Assembly: GCA_013289795.1 (NCBI GenBank)
Contig: JABCZH010000001.1
Coordinates: 124,001 to 188,000, forward strand
Reading direction: 5' to 3'
Source: Acidobacteriota bacterium
Lineage (GTDB): Bacteria; Acidobacteriota; Terriglobia; Terriglobales; Acidobacteriaceae
DNA: 64,000 nt
The position numbers and the translations under genes were made by a program. The notes under the pieces are model-generated. The model did no database searches, had not been told where the DNA came from, and saw only the letters and a list, made by a program, of their open reading frames with translations. This document shows positions 8,543 to 10,515 of the stretch, one piece after another (the first letter of the stretch is position 1; every line of letters begins with the position of its first letter).

Positions 8543-9031
8543 CTATCCGTTCACCTTCGCCAACGCCTCCAGCAAATCTTCACTCTTCGGTGCCTGGTCC
8601 AGGGGATACACCTTGGCGAAAACAATCTTCCCGCTCTTGTCCACGATAAACACCGCCCGCTCGCTGATCCCTACTAACGGCGGTCCCTGGCGCATGATGC
8701 CGAATGCCTTGGTCACTTCCCCGTGAGGAAAGAAATCCGAGCACATGGGCAGCTGTATGCTGCCGATCTCGTACTTTTGCCACGCTTTGTGGCTGAAAAT
8801 TGAATCTACGCTAATGTCCAGAACCTGGGCATCGAGTGCGGCGAACTTCTCCCGGTCGGAGTTGAGCGCCGGCACCTGCTCCCCTCAAGTCGGGGTCCAG
8901 TTCAGGGGATGAAAGGTCACCACCACGTTCTTCTTTCCGCGAAAATCACTCAGCCGGATCTTGACTTGCCGTCCGTCTTCGACTGCGGGCAGTTCAAAAT
9001 CCGGCGCTGTGTCGCCAACCTGCAAAGCCAT
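8543..9031 (-). CDS. Peroxiredoxin with in-frame TGA at the catalytic position (probable selenoprotein)
   Basis: Read from ATG 9031 (ribosome binding site GGAGGT eight bases upstream), the frame encodes a complete 162-residue AhpC/TSA-type peroxiredoxin interrupted only by TGA at codon 49 (8885-8887). The local sequence is [19 protein letters not shown]. It fits the universal peroxiredoxin motif PxxxTxxC exactly, with TGA in place of the peroxidatic cysteine. Everything downstream is well conserved ([22 protein letters not shown] with Cys97, [15 protein letters not shown]). Selenocysteine at this position is established in some bacterial peroxiredoxins, such as PrxU of Eubacterium acidaminophilum. 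A hairpin 3' of the TGA could be a bacterial SECIS. Conventional gene calling would see only the 110-residue C-terminal piece from 8875. A sequencing error or a nonsense mutation cannot be excluded from one sequence. The enzyme would reduce peroxides in the cytoplasm. Confidence 0.85.
8840..8870 (-). promoter_or_regulatory. Candidate bacterial SECIS hairpin for the peroxiredoxin TGA
   Basis: On the minus strand, starting 15 bases after the TGA, the RNA can fold as GGCG (lower stem, paired with CGCC), a 5x5 internal loop, then CUCC-GACCG-GGAG as a 4-bp apical stem. The apical loop has five bases and begins with G. It lies about 27 bases after the TGA, within the 16-37 spacing reported for bacterial SECIS elements. 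The stem is short, so the call rests mainly on its location. Confidence 0.4.
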
Positions 9032-9068
9032 CGCTACCTCCGTCGTTGCATTCTACGACAAACATAAA

Positions 9069-9090
9069 GGGCGGCTCTCTCGAGCCGCCC
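9069..9090 (-). terminator. Rho-independent terminator of csp
   Basis: A perfect 9-bp stem (GGGCGGCTC / GAGCCGCCC) with a four-base loop, followed on the minus strand by TTTATGTT. It lies 23 bases after the csp stop and before the peroxiredoxin start. It therefore separates the two minus-strand transcripts. Confidence 0.75.
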
Positions 9091-9603: not shown

Positions 9604-10515
9604 ATGACGGTCCGACGTATTGCTATCTTGCTCTTTCTCTCTTCGTTTTGTTTCGCCGATCTCACGACCGACGTGCGAACCGTCCTCGCGCAAGGCAATT
9701 TTGCTGCTGCGACCACCCAACTGGAAAACTACCGGACGGCTCACGGCGTCGATCCCGATTATCTCGAAGCGCTTTCCTGGATGGCTCGCGGCTCACTCTC
9801 TGCCCAACAGTTTGATCAGGCCGCAAACTATGCCAAGCAGGTTGAAACCCTAGCGCACGAGCAACTCCAGCATCGTGCTCTTGACGCCGAACCTCGCCTG
9901 CCTCTGGCCCTGGGCGCTGCCATAGAGGTGCAGGCCCAAGTGCTTACTGCTCGGGGCCAGCAAACACAGGCAGTCGCGCTGCTCCGTCACAACCTGGCAC
10001 TCTATGGCAATACTTCGCTGCATGCCCGGCTGCAAAAGAACCTGAACCTGCTCGGCCTGGCGGGGCAAGTCGCCCCGCCGTTACGCCTTGGCGAATACCT
10101 TGGATCAAGCCCCAAATCGCCTCCGCAGCTGAAAGGATCTCCGGTGCTGCTGTTTTTCTGGGCGCACTGGTGCATCGACTGCAAACACGAAGGCCCGGTC
10201 ATCACCCAACTAAGCTCTGAGTTTGCTTCCCGAGGATTGACCGTGCTCGCTCCCACGCAGCTCTACGGATATGCGGCCCGCGGGGAAGATGCGAAACCGA
10301 AAGATGAGTTGGCCTACGCTGAGCAGGTGTGGAAGCAGTTTTATCCCGGACTACAAGCCGTCCCGGTTCCCGTCAGCAAAGCCAATTTCGACCGCTACGG
10401 CGCCAGCACTACGCCGACGCTGGTTTTGATCGACCGCAAAGGCCACGTCGCGCTCTACCACCCCGGGGTGATGTCGTATGACGATCTGCGGGCGGCCATT
10501 GAAAAGGCGATGTAG
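9604..10515 (+). CDS. TlpA-like thioredoxin-domain protein with N-terminal helical repeats
   Basis: A 303-residue exported protein. A signal peptide (ILLFLSSFCFADL, about residues 8-20) is followed by ~130 residues of TPR-like helices (FAAATTQLENYRTAH, FDQAANYAKQVETLA). A thioredoxin fold occupies about 160-300, with the active site WAHWCIDCKHEGP (CxxC, around 190-195) and the cis-proline region TTPTLVLIDRKG. This places it among TlpA/ResA-type periplasmic thiol-disulfide reductases, although an intact DsbD partner is not nearby. It is divergent from csp across a 290-base gap containing the csp promoter. Confidence 0.88.
   Translation: MTVRRIAILLFLSSFCFADLTTDVRTVLAQGNFAAATTQLENYRTAHGVDPDYLEALSWMARGSLSAQQFDQAANYAKQVETLAHEQLQHRALDAEPRLPLALGAAIEVQAQVLTARGQQTQAVALLRHNLALYGNTSLHARLQKNLNLLGLAGQVAPPLRLGEYLGSSPKSPPQLKGSPVLLFFWAHWCIDCKHEGPVITQLSSEFASRGLTVLAPTQLYGYAARGEDAKPKDELAYAEQVWKQFYPGLQAVPVPVSKANFDRYGASTTPTLVLIDRKGHVALYHPGVMSYDDLRAAIEKAM

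Follow-up and report, generated by a model that had tools for sequence, protein, structure and literature searches.

The window, by which we mean the whole 64,000-nucleotide stretch of DNA that was analysed, carries on its minus strand a frame (9031-8543) that translates into 162 residues with a terminal stop and a sole in-frame TGA at 8887-8885. The earlier note had described it as a complete peroxiredoxin frame with a single TGA, at codon 49, and both the coordinates and the description proved correct on translation. The DNA before the codon 49 stop is CTGAACTGGACCCCGACT-TGA. When the TGA is read as a residue, the product matches Pfam AhpC-TSA at 4e-32 over residues 5-138, and the PF00578 score of the peroxiredoxin is 111 bits, compared with a curated cut-off of 26. 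Without read-through, the plain list of open reading frames gives only a 110-residue fragment with a GTG start (8875-8543), as that note had said gene callers would report. The ribosome binding site that it placed at the start was likewise found, with GGAGG at 9041-9037. The features at the start of the gene and at the TGA are as follows.

8543..9031, minus strand: predicted selenocysteine (Sec) peroxiredoxin gene of 162 codons and a stop, with TGA as codon 49
8885..8887, minus strand: TGA codon 49, predicted Sec at the peroxidatic position (PLNWTPTU), based on the sequence and on the codon in homologs
9037..9041, minus strand: GGAGG ribosome binding site, 5 nt 5' of the ATG
9069..9090, minus strand: terminator-like stem-loop separating the peroxiredoxin gene from the cold-shock gene upstream

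The terminator scan returned one stem-loop compared with a mean of 1.5 in shuffles, and is by itself no evidence. The cold-shock protein gene (9313-9113, minus) precedes the peroxiredoxin gene on the same strand. Such a gene is also upstream in 10 of the 29 other loci (L091-L119), namely L091, L094, L096, L097, L099, L101, L103, L104, L106 and L109, and is downstream in L116. On the plus strand, 9604-10515 encodes a secreted-looking protein with a thioredoxin-like domain (WCIDC); the peroxiredoxin gene starts about 570 bases away.

Codon 49 in relatives and the selenocysteine machinery

The codon was compared across a set of 200 genomes of the same family, including the window's own, using a match threshold of E <= 1e-30. 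This gave 105 peroxiredoxin matches in 81 of the 200 genomes. An alignment with acidobacterial relatives had been proposed in the earlier note. Of all 105 matches, 64 have TGA at codon 49, 21 have TGC or TGT and 20 have a Ser codon, with the in-frame UGA in the same column as the Cys of homologs. The TGA (8887-8885) falls exactly on the peroxidatic position, as had been claimed. The 64 TGA genes are spread over 61 genomes, and the closest relative (L091, 82-83% identical) also has TGA. In a draw of 297 genomes from the phylum (E <= 1e-25), 40 have a match; 16 of these 40 have one in-frame TGA, and 12 of the 16 lie outside the family. Ten of the 12 out-of-family TGA genes were inspected, and the TGA is codon 49 in 10 of 10.

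TGA is one base away from TGC and TGT, and Cys orthologs exist (21 of 105), so a nonsense mutation or a sequencing error in an ordinary Cys peroxiredoxin might be considered. We reject a sequencing error or a lone nonsense mutation because 61 of 200 genomes share the TGA at the catalytic position, and it also occurs in other families of the phylum. Moreover, both halves of the gene, before and after the TGA, are under purifying selection, with dN/dS of 0.09-0.21 in four comparisons of the coding part 3' of the TGA. The probability left to this reading is negligible. The argument that a chance hit on this very codon is unlikely is strengthened by the recurrence of TGA at the same codon in 64 of the 105 matches.

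The genome of the window (4.67 Mb, 33 contigs, 99.9% complete) was searched for selA, selB, selD and a tRNA-Sec, on whose presence the earlier note had made its reading depend, and all are present. The scores are 535 bits for selA (cut-off 268), 370 bits for selB (cut-off 242) and 364 bits for selD (cut-off 125), which has a single in-frame TGA of its own. The tRNA-Sec scores 66.9 bits (gathering threshold 47), is confirmed by ARAGORN with anticodon TCA, and is on a contig other than that of the window. Within the window, Rfam at the gathering threshold and ARAGORN found nothing. A second tRNA-Sec match in the search (48.2 bits, barely above threshold) is a tRNA-Gly according to ARAGORN.

Among the 200 same-family genomes, selA is above the cut-off in 117. 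Genomes with the TGA form have it in 59 of 61 cases, the others in 58 of 139 (Fisher p = 3e-15). In the two TGA-form genomes without selA over the cut-off (G119 and G184), selB and tRNA-Sec are above cut-off, so their selA is probably in an assembly gap. Of the 20 genomes with a match and no TGA gene, 19 retain selA.

Some bacteria are described as having tRNA-Sec variants that insert a residue other than Sec, and a suppressor or recoded tRNA could in principle place Trp, Cys or Ser at the UGA. This is very improbable given the presence of selA, selB, selD and a tRNA-Sec with anticodon TCA, and given that homologs have Cys at residue 49 (Ser in a paralog), not Trp. Insertion of Sec is also consistent with other genes of the same genome that have TGA at catalytic positions. 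Besides selD, these are the following.

L192:1501-1875 (G000:C8:191082-191456): second predicted Sec peroxiredoxin, TxxU type, motif FAFTGGU
L199:1501-1902 (G000:C3:437166-437567): predicted UxxC Prx-like selenoprotein, GTWUPNC
L201:1501-1851 (G000:C1:520420-520770): predicted deiodinase-like selenoprotein, SYTUPPF
L204 and L207 (G000:C5:176711-177982 and G000:C8:257772-259322): two formate-dehydrogenase-type molybdopterin oxidoreductases, in-frame TGA in a U-H-x-P context

Against NF038285 (cut-off 250), the 117 scanned residues of the deiodinase-like protein score 132 bits. With seven predicted selenoproteins including the peroxiredoxin of the window, found without a systematic search, the genome looks rich in selenoproteins.

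The earlier note had called the gene a probable selenocysteine peroxiredoxin. Given that the Sec machinery is present and that 61 of 200 same-family genomes have TGA as the catalytic codon, we put the probability that it encodes one at roughly 0.95. Comparison shows the TGA and how widely it is conserved, the Sec machinery, the peroxiredoxin fold and a stem that the TGA genes retain. The actual insertion of Sec, the peroxidase activity and the one-Sec cycle described below are the parts of the explanation that we infer.

A predicted hairpin downstream of the TGA

Directly downstream of the TGA a structure of the following kind can form.

8835..8876, minus strand: SECIS-like hairpin 3' of the TGA, with an outer stem and an apical 4-bp stem

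In the window the outer stem pairs +14..+18 with +42..+46 and the apical stem pairs +24..+27 with +33..+36, leaving the loop GACCG at +28..+32. In relatives the outer stem was tested as seven pairs (+12..+18 with +42..+48). The test took in 67 distinct TGA, 20 Cys and 6 Ser genes and left out L028, L030 and L067, which are distant, and identical segments (L010 and L011 match L096 and L100). The outer stem is paired in 82% of cells in the TGA genes, 49% in the Cys genes and 57% in the Ser genes; for the four apical pairs the values are 53%, 44% and 29%. Both sides of the stem pairs vary at synonymous sites. At +27/+33, for example, the window has C-G where close relatives have G-C (TCC with CGG versus TCG with CGC).

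We compared this pairing with 2000 permutations in which synonymous codons were swapped among sequences sharing the residue, a procedure that ignores relatedness. For the TGA genes, and with relatedness so ignored, the outer stem has z = 6.7 and the apical stem z = 3.9, and 0 of 2000 permutations reach the observed values; the middle pairs show no gain (z 0.6). The corresponding values for the Cys genes are -1.4 (outer) and -1.2 (apical). The outer stem slid by 1 to 4 bases is 31-64% paired compared with 82% in place, and the apical stem slid by -2 is 58% paired, slightly above the 53% in place. The tested structure was drawn from folds of some of the same sequences, which favours it against the slid versions, but not against the synonymous-codon permutations. 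The TGA genes fold with a mean energy of -21.9 kcal/mol, compared with -18.8 when they are shuffled synonymously and -15.5 in the Cys genes.

In at least 45 of the 67 TGA genes the apical loop begins with GA, where GG or GU is usual. The generic bacterial SECIS model, in the accessible text of its description, sets constraints on loop, G, spacing and energy, and the window fits these (loop GACCG, 4 bp, spacing 27; PMC13188914). The model does not discriminate among the genes tested, as it is satisfied by 24 of 66 TGA and 8 of 20 Cys genes, and by 17-28 of 66 in 20 synonymous shuffles. The single-sequence fold of the window is no better than that of shuffles (z = -0.71). RNAalifold recovered the outer stem from the middle 30 TGA sequences and a different small hairpin around the TGA from the closest 20 (window included); no common structure emerged from the full set of 70 TGA sequences, from the 20 most distant or from the 20 Cys sequences. 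A clear signal thus appeared in the pair-by-pair permutation test and in no other. We regard the outer stem as well supported and the apical stem as likely.

The 110-residue frame (8875-8543) in the plain list of open reading frames could also be taken to mean that the locus makes two products, a peptide of 48 residues and, from the internal GTG, a protein of 110 residues. Such a split would run through the catalytic loop, and in Cys orthologs the fold is intact; homolog matches cross codon 49 in one frame, and the TGA is followed by a stem kept by paired changes. Two separate products are very improbable. For the Sec peroxiredoxin we propose that SelB with Sec-tRNA-Sec would decode the UGA at codon 49 by virtue of the hairpin directly downstream, and that the full 162-residue protein would be produced with Sec at the peroxidatic position.

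Active site and relation to known peroxiredoxins

An AlphaFold2 model, built from 24 rows with Cys in place of Sec, has a pLDDT of 95.5, and the best Foldseek matches to it are peroxiredoxins with TM of about 0.9. In the 24 chosen rows Pro42, residue 49 and Arg125 are invariant and Thr46 is present in at least 90%. Among the PDB entries closest in sequence are a plant 2-Cys peroxiredoxin and, at 4.8e-23, AhpE of Mycobacterium tuberculosis (5c04, 1xvw, 4x0x), which is similar in size and about 35% identical. The two proteins share the aligned Thr, catalytic residue and Arg, and PHG after SDF, whereas AhpE has Cys (Cys45) in place of Sec and Leu at the position of Cys97. Thr46 and Arg125 align with Thr42 and Arg116 of AhpE, which, in the part of the AhpE study available, bind the Cys45 thiolate (PMC4965862). 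The plant and animal 2-Cys peroxiredoxins (5zte, 4mh2) are the best Foldseek matches, but the protein of the window does not have their C-terminal resolving Cys.

The peroxiredoxin most likely reduces peroxides through a selenolate. The selenolate would be held by Thr46 and Arg125 and would attack the peroxide, giving a selenenic acid. The sole Cys of the protein, Cys97 (PMCSDF), could then resolve the selenenic acid in a Sec-Cys cycle. Cys97 is present in 35 of the 71 TGA proteins examined (including 7 from named records) and in 17 of 20 Ser paralogs, but the other 36 of the 71 have Ala, Leu, Val or Gly there, so Cys97 is not needed in general. With such variation across the clade, an obligatory resolving role for it is unlikely, and resolution through Cys97 is a minority possibility for this protein. 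The limited occurrence of Cys97 therefore favours, with fair probability, an AhpE-like one-Sec cycle in which the selenenic acid would be reduced by an external thiol partner.

A Sec-containing peroxiredoxin of the TxxU type was reportedly described from Eubacterium acidaminophilum by Sohling in 2001. The statement in the earlier note that Sec peroxiredoxins are known in some bacteria agrees with the literature, where the portions available treat TxxU Sec peroxiredoxins as an established family (PMC13188914, PMC1794560, PMC1088965, PMC9312934). Bacterial TxxU proteins likewise have a PF00578 domain, PxxxTxxU with Sec at the peroxidatic place, and Cys homologs, but the protein of the window belongs to a different subfamily, the acidobacterial clade. 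It scores 87.1 bits against the NCBIfam model PrxU (NF040737, cut-off 270) and 52 bits against Prx-SUH (NF045827, cut-off 298). The Prx-SUH thiol peroxidase is also a Sec peroxidase of the same superfamily, but its CxxU motif, listed in the accessible text of PMC13188914, is absent from the protein of the window. Because it falls far below the cut-offs of both curated Sec-peroxiredoxin models matched, the predicted protein is, by sequence, assigned to a new acidobacterial clade of a known kind of Sec peroxiredoxin.

A literature search that covered few subscription papers found no paper on a Sec peroxiredoxin in Acidobacteriota. The available parts of two papers give 4 selenoproteins of 3 families for Acidobacteria in a 2006 survey (PMC1794560) and 3 selenoproteins for one acidobacterium (PMC12013277), and these counts may already include a peroxiredoxin of the clade. 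The gene adds a broad and apparently old clade of Sec peroxiredoxins in Acidobacteriota, and ordinary gene finding would shorten it in many related genomes.

Sec, Cys and Ser forms within the clade

A quick tree was made of 123 proteins (79 Sec, 38 Cys and 6 Ser), from which the last 15 of the 105 family matches are absent. The protein of the window is sister to that of L091, also a Sec form (SH-aLRT 96). One clade of 64 Sec, 16 Cys and 6 Ser forms takes in 86 of the 90 same-family rows in the tree, and Cys forms are scattered at several places within it. At least 13 changes of the Sec label are required, and the starred branches force 4. The nested Cys groups suggest Sec-to-Cys losses as the direction of change. 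Table 1 of the 2006 survey, in the portion available, gives no Sec-to-Cys event for peroxiredoxin (PMC1794560). The close Sec/Cys pairs in the clade provide a natural test of the benefit of selenium to a peroxidase and of how frequently Sec and Cys are exchanged.

The Ser form is a paralog present in 20 genomes (L173, L179-L183 and L237-L250), with AGC, AGT, TCA, TCG or TCC at the catalytic place. Cys97 is retained in 17 of the 20 paralogs, and all 20 genomes also carry a Sec (17) or Cys (3) form. The genome of the window has no Ser paralog at E <= 1e-30, and comparison of one Ser paralog with the 13 AhpC-TSA matches of this genome identified Sec or Cys proteins only. A speculative and rather doubtful account is that an ancient Sec peroxiredoxin was inherited by acidobacteria, that Sec and Cys were swapped several times, and that one branch was duplicated to a Ser form kept only with a Sec or Cys enzyme. 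The Ser form could then be a partner, a regulatory subunit, or a reductant through the mostly conserved Cys97. If true, a selenoenzyme would work with its own catalytically dead copy. Four neighbourhoods of Ser paralogs were viewed by eye: in three, a gene that we take to be proA-like is nearby, and two have a gene that is presumably M28-peptidase-like.
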